Assembly: GCA_963921195.1 (NCBI GenBank) | Contig: OY992540.1 | Location: 17,181,136 to 17,245,135 of the forward strand | DNA length: 64,000 nucleotides | Origin: Pegoplata infirma | Lineage: Eukaryota; Arthropoda; Insecta; Diptera; Anthomyiidae | Reading direction: 5' to 3' | Shown here: positions 961 to 47,783 of the stretch, in pieces | How positions within the stretch are numbered: position 1 is the stretch's first letter | How the letters are laid out: each line of letters begins with the position of its first letter | Notes under the pieces: generated by a model | The model's input: only the letters and a program-made list of their open reading frames with translations | What the model was told of the DNA's origin: nothing | Database searches by the model: none | Made by a program: the position numbers and the translations under genes

Positions 961-1102
961 GAAACTTTGAGCCCATTCAGAGAGCAGAAGATATCAACCG
1001 ATTTCCAAAAAAATTCACATCTGTAATACCCATCTGGGTAGACATCTTTTGCCGGGTATAGCGTTTCGATCCGACAAAAAAGTGGCAAAACGACCCACCC
1101 TA
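961..1102 (-). mobile_element. terminus of a TAGGGTGGGTCG-type element
   Basis: On the minus strand this stretch starts TAGGGTGGGTCGTTTTGCC (1102 downward). It resembles the termini at 24003 (TAGGGTGGGCCG), 34424 (TAGGATGGGCCG) and the complete element at 44371. No matching opposite end was found, so the element is truncated. The 170-bp array may belong to it. Confidence 0.4.
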
Positions 1103-1138
1103 GTAGCTACCCCTATGCAATTAAAAGCTAAAAAGATT

Positions 1139-2040
1139 TGCCTACTGACGGTGTAACGCCGAGGAGCACAGCTTTAGCACCAGTGCTGGTACGCCATCGC
1201 ATTGTTCCTATCTCTGTTTACGAATGACCAAAAGCTCTTACTATCCCGAGGGACAGAAAGATTTTAGCACAAAGACGCTGTTGGTAGAGAAACTTTTCCT
1301 ATCTCAGTACATTTGGTTCTCGCCTGCTTGCGCAGCATATCAGAATTGTCGTTTTCTGAGTGCTTCATCCCGAAAGTCTGATTAAACCAACACTTATCAT
1401 TTGGCTTAAACGAAACCAGTATTGTAGGAATACATTTCTCAATTCCAAGCTAAATCACATTACCCCCCATTTTTGCAACTTCATCTACGTTACCGTCAAG
1501 GAAACGAAATTTCCAGTTAAAACTATAAAAAGGTCGAGATTATTTTGTTGTTGTCCTTTAACACACGCATTGTGTGTAGGTTCGTCCACCAGTTTCGCCA
1601 GATGGTTGTGCGAAATGTTCAACGTATTGGCCCTCGGGAGTGGTATGGCTGGAATGGCAAGGCTAAGAGGAATTGTGAACTTTAAAGACCAAAGCGATGA
1701 CCACTTCAGCACTCGGACAACTAGCATGGATATCGGTAATATTAGCAGGGTGTCAAAGCCATTGAAGGAATCCTCTCCTGCTGCATTTGGACTCCTGTAA
1801 AGGGATCCCAAATATAAAATTAGTGCCCTTATCCCAAACACAACCCATAGGCCGCTAAATTTGGGACCACTTCATTCACTATATAGTCGTTCCTGGCAAT
1901 ATTACACACCATAACTTCTAACATATACCCTATTAAGAATAAAAGGCGATTGGTGGTAACCAGGTAAGTGAAAGTCCTATGGAGCAGCATTCTCGCACAA
2001 CTAGGTCTCACATAAAGCAAAAATATTTGGCGATAGAAAC
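1139..2040 (-). pseudogene. non-LTR retrotransposon ORF2 remnant: endonuclease to start of reverse transcriptase
   Basis: Decayed minus-strand coding sequence of an APE-type non-LTR element (jockey/I-like groups). Conceptual translation across several frameshifts and stops gives, in order: an ARNDYI segment, LYRSPNAAGE (cf. the family's LYRSPN), FKVHNSS where the family has GDFNxHN, ISHNHLAKLVDEPTH, NNLDLF followed by SLTVT (cf. the family's PTH..NTLDLF), then KCWFNQTF (cf. KPWFNxxC), and DGVPALVLK near 1190-1160, which opens the reverse transcriptase. The 146-codon plus-strand frame here is a shadow. Stops and frame changes show that it is dead. Clade assignment is tentative. Order and orientation match the second copy at 5570-7260. 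Confidence 0.7.
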
Positions 2041-2190
2041 GGGTAGTGGGTTCGATCCCACACAAACCCTTGTCCGATTTCGCTACAACGAGACGTCGGT
2101 TATTGTTACCGGTTCTCGGTTAGGTTGAAATTATAAGAAAAATATTTGTAATTATGTTGTAAAACAATTAATAAAACACTTGATCATGGG
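2041..2190 (+). mobile_element. tRNA-derived SINE (copy a)
   Basis: It contains GGGTTCGATCCCA (from 2049), a near-perfect pol III B box (GGTTCGANTCC). A tail then follows with CGATTTCGCTACAACGAGA, GTTACCGGTTCTCGGTTAGG and the end ATAAAACACTTGATCATGGG. The same tail occurs at 7310-7400 and, reversed, at 17700-17880. The A-box half is not clear. Pol III transcription is inferred from family logic. Confidence 0.65.
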
Positions 2191-2304
2191 ATCAAAATTA
2201 TTATATATACTCCTAATAGTTTCTAATTTATCACTTGCCAAATACAAGAAGCAAGATGAACTGACTTCTTCTCTTCAAACAGCTCTTACAGGAATAAGAT
2301 CTCG
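2186..2304 (+). CDS. possible first coding exon, secreted or membrane protein
   Basis: ATG at 2186 opens 39 codons plus 2 bases that end at CG|GTAAAT, a good donor site (GT at 2305). Without splicing a stop follows at once. The N-terminus reads as a signal peptide: MGSKLLYILLIVSNLSLA, then a polar stretch starting KYKKQDELTSS. I do not recognise the family. Neither the acceptor nor exon 2 was found in the following kilobases. The ATG lies inside the ACTTGATCATGGG end shared with the SINE copy at 7310-7400, so the start may have been donated by the SINE. The alternative is a chance frame of about 40 codons in AT-rich DNA. The hydrophobic run directly after Met and the donor are the only reasons to list it. 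Confidence 0.33.
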
Positions 2305-2738
2305 GTAAATTGTTCAGCTTTCTATTAATACTCCTAAGGGATGCTGATTGTTCCCTTGCTTGTAAGATACAAAATAAACCCGATCACACTTCGTATTTAT
2401 GGTCTTAGAACCCAAGGCCTTGAGAGAAACAAGACTGTCTCGAAAATATTAGTGTTTAATGGGACTATAAACTCGTTACTCTTCTAAGACATTCTCGTAA
2501 ATTTTGGAAAAATTCATACTCAGATTTCTCGGAGACTTTTAGACTAATATTCACGTACACGTGCAACAAAGACAGTTTTTAAACGGCAAGCGTTAAAAAA
2601 GGCGTGAAAAAAATGCTTCATATTTTTTTTAGAAATAATAATAACATTTTAAGAATTAAAAACCAAGCGATCCAGGATCTTATAATATCTTAAAATTGTA
2701 CTCGGATTTCCGAAATATGATTTAAAGTACCGCAACTA
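2305..2738. other. AT-rich spacer or intron
   Basis: No repeat partner elsewhere in the window and no convincing reading frame. If 2186-2304 is an exon, this is intron. Confidence 0.3.
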
Positions 2739-3350
2739 ACACAGATAAAAATGAGTTGTTAGATCAAGCACGAAATACACCAGGTAGAGCATTATTTTAA
2801 TTAAAAGTCAGCTAATGAAGAAAAATGTTTAATCAAGCACGAAAGTTGTAGGTCAGTCATTGACAGTTGATGAAACCAATGCTTGATTTGAGTAATTTGT
2901 TAATTGTTATTTTTCTGTTATTTTTGATTAAACCAATCCTTGATTTGAGTGAGCGGTTAATCAATAATTTTTTGTTATTTTTGATTAATCCAATGTTTGA
3001 TCTGAGTGAATAGTTAATCAATATTTTACAGTTGTAGTGTTTTTTGTTAGTATCTTGTTTAAATTGTTTTTTTGTGTGCTTTATATTATTATTTTTCTTC
3101 GTCTTGTGTGCGTGCAAGTACTTTTCTATTTGGCGACTAACGAAAACTTAAACAAAAAACGCAACAGAGTTTATCGCATTGTTACTCAAAACCTACTATG
3201 ATGAGTTTTTTTTTTGTTTTTGTGAATTTTTTGTGAATTTTTCAGATTTAAGCAAATGGTAAATTGATTCAAGTAAAATTTAATTGAGTGTCAAATTTTA
3301 AGCTGAGCAAATATTTAATAGTTTTTTTCCATCGAATATTTTTTCTGTGT
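2739..3350. mobile_element. TIR element with ACACAGA ends
   Basis: The left end is ACACAGATAAAAATG and the right end is ATATTTTTTCTGTGT, which are inverted to each other. The length is about 610 bp and it is non-coding. The ACACAGAAAAAA terminus recurs at 4299, 15434 and 47695-49074. An 86-codon minus-strand frame inside is produced by the internal tandem repeat. Confidence 0.5.
2871..3031 (+). repeat. 57-bp tandem repeat, about 3 units
   Basis: Units start at about 2871, 2929 and 2986. Each carries GATTAAACCAATNCTTGAT, then TGAGTGA..GTTAATCAATA and a T-rich end. It lies inside the 2739-3350 element. Confidence 0.7.
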
Positions 3351-4298
3351 AAATAATAAACCATTTCTGGTGTAGACTATACTGCTCCAAGCATCAGGCT
3401 TTATCTAAAATGTCCTTACTGGCTGTTTGATATACCAATTCATTGCACTTAACTAATTTCTCCTAAGTATAAATATGCCACGCCGATGCATTTTTTTTCC
3501 TGTTTATTTTTGTTAAATTTAATGTTCATAAAGGGACTACTTCACTTCTGTGATTCAAACAGAAGTGCACCAAATACATATGAAAATCATAGACATTTTT
3601 CCATTCCATATACCATTAATTTGTGTTATTTTTTTCGATTTACGGCTAGAATTCCATGATTTTCCCCTAAATTACAGTACACGAAGAACGAAATTTCCTT
3701 TACCTCCCTTTTTGTTTATGTATATTTTTTTTAATTATTATTATTTTTGTAAATGAGACTCATTTGAGAAATGCCATAATTTCAACGCTAAAATAAAATC
3801 CTAAAAATAATTTTAATTTATAATGCTTTAAATTCTAACAACACTTTATGGATTATAATTGTTTTTATATCTTGAGTGCACTTAAAAAAATTAAGTCGGT
3901 AAAATTAACTTGCAATTTTTTGAGGAGAACATCATTTTCTAGAAAAATAGCTACAACTTATAGTAAAATTATAAACAAAATCAAAAAATAACTGCTAAAA
4001 TGACACAATTTTAAGTTTTTGCAGATCTTTATGTCAGTTGTTTTTACTGAAAATATATCTGGAAAAAATCTGATATATTTATATATATTCATATATGATC
4101 GTATCTCATTGCATATAATAACATATGAAATGTCAAAAATCAAGATCTAATTATATCTTGGATTTGGTTAACATTGCCCCAAATTTGATAATAAATTATA
4201 TTTGATCAGATAAAATTATATACAATCAGATGCAATCAAATATTATCAGTTCAAAGCAGATCTTATCAGAAAACATCGATTTTTAACCCAAAACACTA
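3351..4298. other. AT-rich non-coding stretch
   Basis: About 950 bp of low-complexity, T-rich sequence. Around 4080-4260 it has loosely repeated TATAAATTATAT and GATCAGAT words related to those at 43320-43515. No gene is supported. Confidence 0.4.
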
Positions 4299-4470
4299 AC
4301 ACAGAAAAAAATTGAAACAAATTTCAATCAACAAAAACGCGGATTCAATCAATTTGTTGATTGAAATTCCTCCAATCAACAAAACTGTTATACCAATCAT
4401 CAAATTGTAGGTGATTAATTGAATATTTTTTCAATCAAACACTTTTAAATTATTGTTTCTGTAAAGACAG
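4299..4470 (+). mobile_element. ACACAGAAAAAA-type repeat (left part)
   Basis: Starts ACACAGAAAAAAATTGAAAC, then has a short hairpin (TTCAATCAA..TTGATTGAA) and GTAGGTGATTAATTGAATA. The segment 15434-15607 follows the same order with substitutions, so these are two copies of one family. The right end here is unclear because a hairpin element follows. Confidence 0.5.
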
Positions 4471-4517
4471 TCGAGCTCAGGCTCTAATTATAATTATGTA
4501 TTATAATTTTTTGATTT

Positions 4518-5133
4518 GTTATATATGGTTTTGAATTGAGAAAAGTGTGAAAGAAAAATTTTAATTTTTCTAAAAATTTAAGACATCCTGGTTTGTTTCT
4601 TACTAGTTTCATATTAAAATGGCAACACCTAACATTTGTGTCTAAAATATAGACCATGTCTGGCAATGTTTGCAAAAATAAGTACTTAGATCAGAATTGA
4701 TGAAGGAGAGGAAGAAAATAATGATGACTAAAAATAAAAGTTTGTTTACACATAATTACAATAACAAGTCTTCTGTTAGAAAAAACAACAGCAACAACCA
4801 CACTCGAATTGAAAAAAATCAGATTTAGTTGATACTTGCTTAACAGCCTACTTGGCGTATCGGTCTAGAGTGATTGTACGTTACAAGCAGTTAATAGCAA
4901 AGTATTACAGATGATGATGAGTTCAATCCTTGTCGGCTGCGATCTGTAAATAATTTTCACATATAGAGTTCTATTGACTATTAACTAAATAAATTTGACA
5001 TTAAAAGTTTTTCTGAAGATTATTATAACTGGATAATATGAAACTAGTAAGAAACAAACCAGGATGTCTTAAATTTTTAGAAAAAATTAAAATTTTTCTT
5101 TCACACTTTTCTCAATTCAAAACCATTTATAAC
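4518..5133. mobile_element. hairpin element with tRNA-like core
   Basis: Arms of about 100 bp (4518-4616 and 5034-5133) are nearly perfect inverted copies. Both carry AAGACATCCTGGTTTGTTTC or its complement. The loop of about 415 bp holds the tRNA-like module at 4853-4945. I see no coding potential. Compare the same architecture at 27611-28606, 32581-33297 and 42474-42673. Confidence 0.75.
4853..4945 (+). ncRNA. tRNA-like module (pol III A and B boxes)
   Basis: TGGCGTATCGG (4853) matches the A-box consensus TGGCNNAGTGG at 9 of 11 positions. About 60 bp further, GAGTTCAATCC resembles a B box and T arm. The rest does not obviously fold into a full cloverleaf, so this is a tRNA-derived or SINE-head sequence, not a clear working tRNA gene. 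Confidence 0.5.
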
Positions 5134-7400: not shown

Positions 7401-7454
7401 GGGGAGATCAGGGTTTTCAACAAGTTTTCACGATATGGATAAGACTTTTATCCT

Positions 7455-8200
7455 TTGAACTCTAGCATCTTCCAGGCCGAAATAGTTGTCATAAGCAAGG
7501 CTGATTTAAAATTCGTAGATGAGACAAACAGGGAATTAAACTTTTATGTTGACATCCAAGCTGCTCTAAAAGCTCTCAGAAGCTTTTGTAAAGTAGTTTT
7601 CGAATTCTTCGAGAACTTACAAAGTTTTGGGAATATGAACAAGTTAAAACTAATATGGGTACCAGGTCACATAGGTATTCAAGGGAACCAGAGAGCGGAC
7701 GAGCTAGCGAAACAAGGTGCTAATGATATTAGTATTTCTGTACACATCGATCCACCAATTCAGCACTTCAGATTGCTACGCGATAGTCTAAACACCGGAA
7801 TGGCTGACGGAAAGTGGAGAGGGCTAACAACGAGCACGATCAGTAGAAGATTGTGGTCATGCTACAATCTGAGGAAAACTATCTATTTACTCTCACTTAC
7901 CTGATGGAACTGTCGTACACTCACTAGAGTAATCACTAGGTACTGCCTTATATGTTATCATAGGAAGAAAATGGGACTTATTTCCGGTGCCAACTAAAGG
8001 AGGTGCGATGAACCTAACACTGAGGAAACTTATTCTTTACCACTGTCCCGCCTTGGCCTGAACCCGCCTGCACATATTGGCCAGACATGTCTTCGAGAAC
8101 TTGGAAACAGTTCCTAATATCGACTTAAGACAAATTATAAGGAATTATAGTGGTTTCGCTATGGACCATCCTTTCTGTGTGAGGAGTCTTTGACTCCGCC
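7455..8200 (+). pseudogene. non-LTR retrotransposon RNase H domain and 3' end
   Basis: The open frame 7455-7904 gives 149 residues of an RNase H domain as found at the C-terminus of ORF2 in I/R1/LOA-type elements. Visible landmarks are E9 in FQAEI, D33 in YVDIQAALKAL, WVPGHIGIQGN with H72, and D82 in QRADELAKQG. The N-terminal strand with the first catalytic Asp is lost. Downstream, in shifted frames, RRCDEPNTEET and YHCPAL recall the CR.C...ET..H.L..CPAL motif that ends such ORFs, then NIDLRQIIRN. It lies on the opposite strand to 5570-7260, so the two are separate fragments or a rearranged element. Confidence 0.75.
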
Positions 8201-23947: not shown

Positions 23948-24470
23948 GTGCCTACCCTCTACAATTAAAGCTCTGCAACTTAAGAAAATACATTTTTCGG
24001 CCCACCCTAATAAACTCACACAATAAAAGACGTCTATTTGTTTAAAAAAGCATTACAATGGTACTTGCATGTTGTACAAACACAATCACAAAAGTTGAAA
24101 AAAAATATTCTTAAAAGTAGGAAGTTCAAAATTGTGCATTCTGGTGTTTTTTTTTATTCTTTGTTCGCTAAATTAAAAGGCATCGTTTTCTGTAAAAGCA
24201 ACTTAGGCTTAAATTAAATTGGGAAAAATAAGAGTAAAAGCAATAAGGGTATTCACAGGAATAAGTTTGAATATGATTTTTTACAAGAAAGTAATTCACC
24301 CTTCGTCTGAACCAGCTTTAATCTCAAGTTGCAAACACTGTAAATATCTTTTTTGATTATGAATCTGGGGTGCTCCACTGCTATATTTCGACGAAAATCA
24401 AAATTTTCGCTAGAGTCGTTTTTGAAAAAAAACGCGGTCAAAAGTCTAAATATTAACATTTTAAGCTTAT
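23948..24470. other. repeat debris including a TAGGGTGGGCCG terminus
   Basis: The minus strand shows TAGGGTGGGCCGAAAAATG (24012 downward). GTGCCTACCCTCTACAATTA also appears, mutated, at 1103-1125. The 68-codon minus frame at 24253 is unsupported. Confidence 0.35.
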
Positions 24471-34230: not shown

Positions 34231-34765
34231 TATTTTTTCTAAAAAAAACTTTGCTTTGGCAAGTACACCCAAATCTTCCGCAAAACATTATCATGATTTA
34301 ATGTTTTGGGAAAAAGTACAAAATTCGCACGCATTTTTATTTCCAATTTTGAATTTAAAAGTCATATACGTATACTTTATGTAAAGTAAAATTTATATAT
34401 TATTCATCCGTCTGTTGTATAGTAGGATGGGCCGTTTTTACACATTTTTCTCTGATCTGAAACGGTTACCCAGGAAAAGGGCCCCACCGATACAAAAAAA
34501 ATCATGTTGGAATCGGTCATTATCTTTGGTTCGTTCTTTGAGGTTCATGTCTGGACTCAATAAAAATATTTTTCACACAATGAAAAAATGTTGTTTTTCG
34601 ATTTTATTTATTTTTTATTTCGTTATTATTTTGATTGATAAGCTTAAGTAAATCACAAAAGAATCATTTTAACCCATTTCGATCCACTGTTGGATTTTTC
34701 GAACAGTGGAGATCATATTTTTCCAAAAAATATTTATGTATGAAAAAGATAGAATTTCAGGTATA
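34231..34765. other. repeat debris with a TAGGATGGGCCG terminus at 34422
   Basis: TAGGATGGGCCGTTTTTACAC resembles the termini at 1102, 24012 and 44371. The 78-codon frame at 34415 starts inside it and has no recognisable domain. Confidence 0.35.
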
Positions 34766-44330: not shown

Positions 44331-45197
44331 TTTTTATACCCTCAACTCTAGTGATAGAGGGTATATACAATAGGGTGGGGCGATTTCAACATCTTAATGG
44401 GCGCTTCGCGTTTCTGATTCTTGGGATTGTACTGAGCAAAAAAGTCAACTAGACCATACGTCTACGGTGAAAATCGAGCCTCCCGATTTTGACTTGAAGT
44501 TTTTTCTCAGACTTTATTCTTTTGGAAAATTTGCAAATATTCTTGGGCTCATATTTCGTAAACTATTTGAAATTTTGACTTATTTTTAAAAGTAAAGTTG
44601 TAGCTATTGTCTCTGGCTACAATTTCTCTTAACATATTTCTTAGAAAAAACTTCGTTTTCATGGTCAAAAAGTCGAAAATGTAGAAAATTCACCACTTTT
44701 TGTAATATTTTTTTTGATATTTTGGCCTATAACAGCCAAACTGTTAAGATTTTCGATCCAATACTAAGACAAAAATTGTAGCCAAGACAATAGTTAAGAA
44801 CTCTCTAGTACATCGCAAAAGCATTAGAATGCTCCTTAAGGCAGTTTTGGTCTTGTGAAAGTGCAAATTTTTTGTGAAAATATTGATAAATTACCATTTT
44901 CAGTTGTCCATAGTGCAAAATCATAAAAATGTTCTATTTCTTATTTTTTCCACTTTTTTTATCCAAAAATATAATGTTTTTTCTTTGTTTTGTTCAATAT
45001 TTATTTTGAAAATTCATTTAAAGTACAAAGTAATTGTATTGGTAGAGACAAGGTATGAATCAAGAAGAATTCCAATTTAGTGTATTTTTCATTCAAAGAT
45101 TGCCTTCCAAATCTTTTCGAGATTCCATACGAGGCGCTTTCTTTCGGCCTTCAGATACAGATGCCATTATACCTTCACGGTTTTGTCGATTGAGCGC

Positions 45198-45740
45198 TTA
45201 GCGAAGCTCAGTTAAATCGCATACGTTGTCGCGAATATACAATATTTTTTTGAGTGCCAATGTACGAATTTCTTTACAATCATTGTATAACATGCTCAAC
45301 AAAACATTTTCACTGTGTGCGAAATCGGAATTATTCTGTGTTACGGGATTTATGATGTTACGTAAGTTGTCTGGTAAATATTGCGTCCACTGGATGAATT
45401 TTCCAAGCAGAGCACTACCGTATACAGCCGAATTGTAGTATTTGACATTGAAATACATGGGAACATACACTTTCATGATGTACCTTGCCAAAATTTGTAA
45501 ATTTTGTGATGGATTTTCTGTCGCAATATACACGCGGAGCAATCTACTAGCTTTTGTTATCCATCTCGAATGTCGTACTGTTCCAGGTTTGATGTTTGCA
45601 AGATTAATTGAGCAACTACCATTTGAAACGGCTTGGGCAATTTGGTATAGATATTTAACGTCCGTAGAAAGTTGATTTTCAGCATCTGTACTCATTGGAG
45701 GAATGTGTTCAAGTGGAATAAGTTGAAAATTTTCGATAAC
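45198..45740 (-). CDS. transposon-borne conserved-looking protein, 3' exon
   Basis: Minus-strand exon with acceptor TTTTTCAG before 45740 and stop at 45198-45200: 181 codons, phase 0. The internal ATG at 45695 would give 165 residues. The protein is mixed alpha-helical in look: VKYLYQIAQAVSNGSC, HSRWITKASRLLRVYI, NLQILARYIMKVYVPMYF, LPDNLRNIINPVTQNN, FAHSENVLLSMLYND and IRTLALKKILYIRD. I recall the pattern HSRWLTxANRxLRLYV..P..NL...FVVKVY as recurring in uncharacterised insect and cnidarian proteins; this is memory, not a search. No DDE/DDD motif, zinc finger or THAP domain is visible. It sits in the loop of an intact TIR element, so it is probably the C-terminal part of the element's own transposase or an accessory protein. 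Long and free of stops in AT-rich DNA, it was probably under selection recently. Confidence 0.75.
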   Translation of the reverse strand, partial: VIENFQLIPLEHIPPMSTDAENQLSTDVKYLYQIAQAVSNGSCSINLANIKPGTVRHSRWITKASRLLRVYIATENPSQNLQILARYIMKVYVPMYFNVKYYNSAVYGSALLGKFIQWTQYLPDNLRNIINPVTQNNSDFAHSENVLLSMLYNDCKEIRTLALKKILYIRDNVCDLTELR

Positions 45741-45829
45741 CTGAAAAATGTTTAGATTATTTAAATAAAAAAATTACAAAACTATATCGTATGCGAAGGC
45801 TTATGTTCTAGATTTGATGAAGACGCTGA

Positions 45830-45892
45830 TTATTCTGGCTGCATCTCCATCTCCACATTCTCTGTATTATCAGAATCCACTGGATTATCCAT
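45830..45892 (-). CDS. possible first exon of the transposon gene, broken
   Basis: ATG at 45892 starts MDNPVDSDNTENVEMEMQPE followed by a stop (45830-45832). Acidic start, plausible first exon, but no clear donor joins it to the acceptor at 45741. The central exons of a longer gene may be deleted here, leaving an internally deleted element. Confidence 0.3.
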   Translation of the reverse strand: MDNPVDSDNTENVEMEMQPE

Positions 45893-47783
45893 ATTTTTTA
45901 TATCTTAAATTTTTTAGTAGCACTGCACAGTTTATACACGAAACAATTATTTCTAAAACTTACATTAAAAAACTATAATAAGTAAAGACTAATTATGGGA
46001 CCGTTCCTTTTGACGTTTATAGGTGGGGTTAGTTGTTTATATGGTTTCTGGGAAAGCTGGATGTTTTGTTTACCTTCTATTTTTCGCTATGAACAACTGA
46101 AAATGTTAATTTATCAATATTTTCACAAAAAATTTACAAGGCCAAAACTGCCTGAAGGAGCCTTCCAATGCTTTTGCGATGTACTAGAGAGTTCTTAACT
46201 GTTGTCTTAGCTACAATTTTTGTCTTAGTATGGGATCGAAAATCTCAAGGGTTTGGCTGTTATAGGCCAAAATACCAAAAAAAATATTACAAAAAGTGGT
46301 GAATTTTCTACATTTTCGACTTTTTGACCATGAAACCGAAGTTTTTTCTAAGTAATATGTTCAGAGAAATTGTAGCCCGAGATAATAGCTACAACTTTAC
46401 TTTTGAAAATAAGTCAAAATTTCAAATAGTTTACGAAATATGAGCCCAAAAAAATTTGCAAATTTTCCAAAAAAAAATAAAGTCTGAGAAAAAACTTCAA
46501 GTCAAAATCGGAAGGCTCGGTTTTCACCGTAGACGTATGGTCTAGTTGACTTTTTTGCTCAGTACAATCCCAAGAATCAGAAACGCGATGCGCCCATTAA
46601 GATTTTTTTCCTTCCTTACTAATCGCCCCACCCTAATATACAAGTTTATCATTCCGTTTGTAACACATCGAAGTATTGGTCTAGGACCCCATAAAGTATA
46701 TATATTCATGATTCTTGATCGATTTTATGACGATCTAGCGATGGTCGTCCGTCTGTCTGTCTCTCCGTTGAAAACACGCTAACTTTTGAAAGACTTCACG
46801 GAGGCTCCTGAAGTTTGGCATATATGTTAACCATTTACCGGGTCAGGTTGGTATTGCAATCCAGCGAAATCGGTCCAGTGGTTCAAAAGTTATGAGCAAA
46901 AGAGTAAATTTCGTCAAGGGTTTTTCGAGATAAAAAACACGATAACTTTCGAAAAACAATAATGAGACTGTTGAAACTTGCCATGTATCTTTGCCTCCTC
47001 ATCTCTGTTTGGTATTGAATTTCAGCTCAATCGGTCAAGTGGTTCAAAAGTTATAAGCAAAACCCCGAATTTCAGATTTTGTTCATCTTAAATGCCACGT
47101 GGTAAACAAGTTTTAAAAGCATTGGTGGTAACTAAGCAATGCTTTTCAAACTTTTTTAGTTTTAAAGCAATGCTTTTTAAACTTGCTTAGTTTTAAAAGC
47201 ATTGGTAACTTAAAAATTACACTAGAAAAAAATTTTACACTCAAAAAAAATTTTACACTCAAAAAAAAATTTAGTTTTTTTACAAAAATGTCAATTGTTT
47301 GTGTACATACGTACGTGCAATCACTCAGAAATATTTTTACAGTAAAAAAAACATTACACCCGAAAAAAAGTTTTACACTTAAAAAAAAAACAAGTAATTT
47401 TTTTTTTTTTTTTTTTAAATGACAAAAAAAGAGTTTTTTACTCAAAATAAAATATTTCTAATCAAAATTGTTAATTTTTTCATGTTAAAAATGTTCTATT
47501 CGTTAAAAAAGGCATTGTGGAGGGTATTCATAGATTCGGCAAAGTCCACTTTAACTTTTCTACTTGTTTTAAATTCATGAATTTTTTTGCCAGAAATTTC
47601 TTAGTTCTTAATATTTCTGAATTCTTCAGCATATTCTATAAATATTTTTCATTTTTCTTTGATGTTCTTTTTTCAAAATTTTTTTGAATCAATGCACAGA
47701 AAAAATAAAAAAATATTTGAATAAATTTATAATACTATTGAGTAAAAAATTACTCAATTTTGCACCAGTAAACGATTTAATAG

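Follow-up and report, generated by a model that had tools for sequence, protein, structure and literature searches.

What kind of element places a spliced gene with no recognizable transposase motif between inverted arms of more than half a kilobase? This question is raised by positions 44371..46635 (gene on the minus strand) of a 64,000-nucleotide stretch of the Pegoplata infirma genome (GenBank assembly GCA_963921195.1, contig OY992540.1, positions 17,181,136 to 17,245,135; hereafter, the window), where a first-pass annotation had recognized an intact transposon with terminal inverted repeats (TIRs) and proposed it as an undescribed element. On the basis of the present analysis, it is very probably a hAT-like cut-and-paste transposon with long TIRs, in a copy that has lost internal parts and is no longer autonomous; it is most probably to be placed in hATm, a published but little-studied branch. 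An undescribed kind of element is improbable, since TAGGGTG ends, long arms and target-site duplications (TSDs) of 8-9 bp are reported for hATm (PMC6004678).

The boundaries of the element were as first annotated. An exact 8-bp duplication, ATATACAA, flanks it at 44363..44370 and 46636..46643, and the 12-bp end TAGGGTGGGGCG (44371-44382, plus strand; 46624-46635, minus strand) extends on both sides to a perfect terminal repeat of 15 bp, TAGGGTGGGGCGATT, at the gene-downstream (44371..44385, plus strand) and gene-upstream (46621..46635, minus strand) ends. A short unlike spacer separates these repeats from the long inverted arms (gene-downstream, 44388..44921, plus strand; gene-upstream, 46079..46606, minus strand), which are 92.9% identical over 536 columns (about 558 bp in the first-pass annotation).

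We searched the whole assembly (1,384,285,496 bases in 813 contigs) and found 687 forward and 685 reverse exact 12-bp ends, against 2 and 6 for the reversed pattern; the first 100 ends listed included 39 plus/minus pairs at distances of 0.5-6.4 kb and two neighbours within 10 kb that did not face each other. Because of these counts and the facing pairs, the ends cannot be attributed to chance. When 20 paired copies were taken (the 18 longest and two near the size of the window element), 18 had identical 8-bp duplications, the exceptions being L018 (6 of 8 bases) and L023 (2 of 8). In total, 37 distinct copies were examined, the window copy counted, which form a non-random sample drawn from this length-picked set and the 30 best protein matches, and which comprise loci with exactly one perfect end per side (loci without both perfect ends were excluded). 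Exact 8-bp duplications were present in 35 of them and mostly followed the pattern nTnnnnAn: 31 had T as the second base and 33 had A as the seventh. A family therefore exists in this genome, as had been suspected. Its form of about 2.27 kb is a non-autonomous derivative that was met repeatedly; lengths of 2.2-2.5 kb were measured for 15 of the 37 copies, that of the window included. Other long copies had unlike interiors, perhaps nested insertions; one of the long copies (L014) has at 1761-2213, in gene orientation, a frame of 151 amino acids (aa) ending in a cysteine cluster, which we take to resemble the piggyBac C-terminus.

The gene within the element had been regarded as a separate, unassigned one; it is instead the terminal part of a transposase, and a conserved D-D-E set is present in longer relatives of that protein. 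A minus-strand frame of 191 codons is open from 45773 to 45201, and 180 of these codons (not 181, as first counted) follow a splice acceptor whose G is at 45741. They correspond to the first part of transposase exon 2, with an RW motif inside (45201..45740). Upstream of it lie the 3' remnant of a single intron (45741..45784, acceptor ...TTTTTCAG), whose boundary with exon 1 is approximate, and what is left of exon 1, about 36 codons from the start codon onward (MDNPVDSDNTENVEME..., 45785..45892), assigned by its reading frame and by tblastn of a related protein, P0020 (83% over 36 aa). The coding sequence of the window copy opens at 45892 with nearly the same codons as P0020, contains an in-frame TAA at codon 21 of this remnant, and then jumps to the end of the intron and exon 2. 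A premature stop (45198..45200) occurs where blastn against L055, a longer genomic copy, revealed a deletion of about 230 bp (L055 2072-2301), and an out-of-frame 3' remnant of exon 2 follows up to a TGA (45093..45197), which reads SIDK...DLEGNL in the longer copies, as judged from the frames of L025 and L055. All these features are on the minus strand.

The missing parts were supplied by other copies and by a related protein. Of 664 candidates from a tblastn search of the genome with the 191-aa frame, 150 were scored, which gave at least 152 matches. One set of these is very similar to the window copy (next best rows, 98%), a second stands at 51-58%, and several copies extended the frame to 303 aa past the stop of the window copy. 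L055 retains upstream coding sequence (FSFDGRKND, CSDGEVANTG and WFICLLHFNELPFRHL), whereas P0020 has an apparently complete exon 1, which begins with MDNPVDSDNTENVEME and reads on into the intron. The intron and acceptor could be read from L055 and P0020, with predicted junctions CAA^GTAAAT and ...TTTTTCAG^GTT, so that the claim of a spliced gene holds. Based on their comparison with the window copy, the parent is predicted to be a gene of two exons and one intron. Most of its exon 1 and, relative to L055, about 230 bp of its exon 2 are missing from the window copy, whose open frame represents the shortened exon 2 of a putative DDE transposase. The parent protein would have about 750 aa, as judged from exon 1 of P0020 and exon 2 of the longer copies. 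Both putative catalytic aspartates are lost through deletion in the window copy, in which no DDE motif is visible, as had been noted, although the family has conserved D, D and E residues.

These comparisons also bear on whether the element could be a foldback element or a miniature inverted-repeat transposable element with a captured host gene. The window copy alone shows no catalytic motif, which would suit such an origin; however, longer copies and relatives join the frame to the D-D core in one gene, and in two further lineages of the same genome a homologous gene is enclosed by ends of this type (copies L074, L075 and L076, which contradict capture). We consider this origin extremely unlikely.

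The second lineage is about 50-59% and the third about 34-37% identical over the query piece. L076, of lineage 2 (1089-4582), has the ends TAGGGTGGGTCA, arms of about 0.3 kb at 80%, frames of 467 and 284 aa, and the TSD GTGACCAT; the AT-rich flanks contain several 8-bp repeats by chance, and this one was chosen because it abuts both ends. L074 (709-4691, TSD ACCTCCAA) and L075 (686-4667, TSD ATACGTAC), both of lineage 3, have the ends TAGGGCGGATCG and arms of about 706 bp that are about 97.5-98% identical; the frame of each is open for 744 codons and gives 732 aa when read from its first ATG. Because they are 99.4% identical to each other and their frames are open, these two copies have likely been mobile recently. 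The lineage-3 protein had at least 484 relatives at E<=1e-3 in a search limited to 7995 candidates, and no Pfam domain was found among the 120 relatives listed, which include proteins of Amyelois, Diatraea, Daktulosphaira and Diabrotica, presumably members of Lepidoptera, Hemiptera and Coleoptera. A complete gene of lineage 1, to which the window element belongs, was not found: among the 100 matches obtained with P0020, for which 89 of 562 candidates were scored, no match with at least 78% identity covered more than 267 of 481 residues. Copies of this lineage may have been mobilized either by another lineage or by a sibling that is lost, unassembled or carried by other individuals.

Relatives were then identified with a joined L055 sequence that bridges its frame break and the intron, and this query matched 131 proteins at E<=0.001. 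A 677-aa protein of Musca autumnalis (P0001) was 85% identical, and those of Rhagoletis zephyria (LOC108374482), Bactrocera and Contarinia (LOC116339554) were 55%, 55% and 54% identical, respectively, and P0020 was found by this query as well; among the matches listed, P0001 and the two LOC entries are named only as uncharacterized proteins. In a family alignment of 145 rows of 640-800 aa, built from 290 proteins, D238, D314, C343, H346, R444 and W445 were present in all 145 rows and E632 in 143 of 143. The N-terminal C73, C75, C82 and C84 (C-x-C...C-x-C) were likewise invariant (145 of 145), and this cluster may bind zinc and DNA. The parent protein would thus comprise an N-terminal, putatively DNA-binding C-x-C...C-x-C region, an RNase H-like core with the D-D-E, C-x2-H and RW motifs, and a predicted Hermes-like insertion. 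NCBIfam and Protein Data Bank (PDB) sequence searches gave nothing or noise, the letters of the protein motifs had no match in the literature search, and none of 14 pattern matches in viral contigs was a relative. One of 72 pattern matches in bacterial and archaeal genomes was a relative (L082, JALONZ010000338.1), on a 3.9-kb scaffold of an Anaerolineae metagenome-assembled genome; it is probably eukaryotic contamination.

The motif order of the family (D, D, C-x2-H, RW, E) matches that of ten open hAT frames from the same genome, which served as the hAT control and in which D177, D243, C263, H266, TRW325-327, E573, R574, F576 and R587 were invariant. In hhalign comparisons, the family profile scored 89% against the ten hATs over 74 columns, and 96% when the N-terminal catalytic pieces were used alone, against 0.4% and 0.1% for reversed-profile controls; with three hATs drawn at random 12 times (11 distinct sets), the values ranged from 1.1% to 93.7%. 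The family sequence VERcVKL, with the catalytic E, is in register with hAT VERiFS, which contains E573. By VIA-align, the predicted fold was closest to the housefly hAT transposase Hermes (PDB 4d1q/6dwz), with about 340 residues aligned in two models, including the insertion and the C-terminus, and 10-11% identity in the top structural alignments; in the models, the RNase H core carries a helical insertion like that of Hermes, placed after the second D and before the final E.

Two other superfamilies were also considered. Long inverted repeats in flies are known from Galileo, a member of the P superfamily, and its long arms and P-type duplication would count for a Galileo-like transposon, as would the P element (6p5a), which was found by Foldseek at 1e-4 and ranked above Hermes for the second model. 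On the other hand, THAP and TNP-like RNase H Pfam domains were found in none of 42 and of 19 members nor in L074 and L076, where a GTP-binding insertion was likewise absent, two same-genome P-like controls being positive for such domains, and the VIA Z was lower than for Hermes. The family profile scored 0.1% against three P-like proteins, although this control is weak, as the hAT profile also scored 0.1% against the same three. Membership of the P superfamily is very unlikely and was rejected. For a Mutator/IS256-like transposon (Mutator-like element or foldback), the long arms could be cited together with ISCth4, which we take to be an IS256-type transposase and which was the second-best structural match of the first model and the top Foldseek match of the second; we give this possibility almost no weight.

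The group that best fits the element, hATm, was proposed as a fourth hAT family with more than 74 Repbase entries, among them hATm-6_RP and hATm-6_CV (PMC6004678, Mob DNA 2018). Its description gives 5'-TAGGGTG...CACCCTA-3' ends, TSDs of 8-9 bp for 28 members, TIR lengths of 417 and 575 bp, and PF05699 (hATC) in hATm-6. The family studied here resembles this description in its exact TAGGGTG/CACCCTA ends in lineages 1 and 2 (TAGGGCG, one base off, in lineage 3), its 8-bp TSDs, its TIRs of about 550 bp, about 0.3 kb and about 706 bp in the three lineages and its insect hosts, and every feature tested fits except PF05699. Among the papers listed in the literature searches, TAGGGTG and CACCCTA occurred together only in PMC6004678, and nothing closer was found among those listed on new transposon superfamilies and Novosib. 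The TIRs of Hermes are imperfect and 17 bp long, Hermes contains a BED finger, and hATs prefer nTnnnnAn targets (PMC10368747); the window family shares with Hermes this target as well as the motif order and predicted fold, and differs in its long TIRs, its C-x-C...C-x-C cluster and the BED domain, which was not found.

Several observations weigh against this assignment. Neither PF05699, the C-terminal hATC dimerisation domain, nor zf-BED, the N-terminal zinc finger usual in hATs, was reported in any of 42 members (some partial) or of 19 (10 common to both sets), a result that tests the sensitivity of Pfam and not the absence of a diverged domain, because HMMER filters drop most matches above E 0.1; the same genome gave at least 150 matches to PF05699 (150 of 946 candidates scored), and the four control hATs scanned contained PF05699 in 4 of 4 and zf-BED in 1 of 4. 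The profile support covers about 75 columns, the C-terminal part giving only 0.2-2% in hhalign, and for the second model Foldseek placed ISCth4 and the P element above Hermes (E 2.2e-3). In addition, the likeness to hATm is one of published features (ends, TSD and TIR length), and hATm-6 is reported to carry PF05699; either the domain call in hATm-6 was made with a more sensitive method, or hATm-6 and the window family differ. Because of this domain, we describe the element as hAT-like, with membership of hATm as the most probable placement. The suggestion that the family may not be a standard hAT was right in that Pfam hAT models do not report the protein, and too strong in that the predicted fold is nearest to Hermes and long arms, thought unusual for hAT, have been described in hATm (PMC6004678).

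A superfamily allied to hAT but separate from it, having a DNA-binding domain and a C-terminal part of its own and in common with hAT/hATm just the TAGGG ends and the 8-bp stagger, would explain why no Pfam family fits, why C-x-C...C-x-C stands in place of BED, why the C-terminal part is unmatched to hATC by profile and why no Pfam domain is listed for the lineage-3 relatives. Nevertheless, such a separation is rather unlikely, considering the alignment of the Hermes-like insertion and C-terminus in both models, the motif order with the partial profile match to hAT, and the agreement of ends, TSD and TIR length with hATm as published. The corresponding broader claim may be put slightly higher, as a minor possibility: a superfamily with a hAT-allied core and the C-x-C...C-x-C domain, lacking hATC, present in several orders of insects, absent from Pfam and distinct from PF05699-bearing hATm-6, one lineage of which has hundreds of long-arm copies and no complete gene found in the assembly.

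For the hAT-like transposon preferred here, the transposase would bind the TAGGGTG ends, excise the element as Hermes does and insert it at staggered 8-bp nTnnnnAn sites, and a full-length sibling may have moved the derivative in trans. A maintained, repressor-like function of the truncated frame was considered and rejected. In 23 derivative copies (window included), whose majority frame ends at codon 180, exon 2 differed from the majority by 42 nonsynonymous, 8 synonymous and 3 stop changes, a nonsynonymous/synonymous ratio of 5.25 against 2.7-3.5 expected under neutrality, with no sign of purifying selection, although it includes only 8 synonymous changes. Divergence from the majority was 0.43% of sites in the coding part and 1.77% in the upstream stretch, which could be read as constraint; however, the low coding value is attributed to sampling, because the copies had been selected for a high protein match, which in itself reduces divergence in coding sequence and above all that at nonsynonymous sites. 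The codon-21 stop was found in none of the 20 other copies whose exon-1 remnant was read, and all remnants read (2 of 23 were not) reach a stop by codon 37 at the latest. On balance, the truncated frame gives no sign of maintenance.

Over the whole window, end-like matches with at most two mismatches numbered 9 against 1.98 expected, a count reached in 1 of 100 shuffles. Three of them are single ends, TAGGGTGGGTCG (1091-1102, minus strand), TAGGGTGGGCCG (23998-24009, minus strand) and TAGGATGGGCCG (34423-34434, plus strand), for which the window matches included no facing partner within 10 kb. Similar termini had been annotated at 1102, 24012 (actually 23998-24009) and 34422 as fragments of the same family; the ends do exist, but because all three differ from the end of the element at base 10, and TAGGATGGGCCG also at base 5, they are taken as ends of related families. 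The window also contains, at 7443-7901 (plus strand), a 153-aa open frame with LIWVPGHIGIQGNQRADELAK, which presumably represents a non-LTR (long terminal repeat) retrotransposon RNase H.

An orphan-looking gene in the window is thus explained as the tail of a transposase, and hundreds of proteins, those listed without a Pfam domain and several called uncharacterized insect proteins, are linked to hAT-type transposition. Our results suggest that a large group of transposases escapes the usual search for hATC and BED domains, and a Pfam model of this family would enable annotators to mask it. L074 and L075 are candidates for examining whether long-arm hAT-like elements still move.
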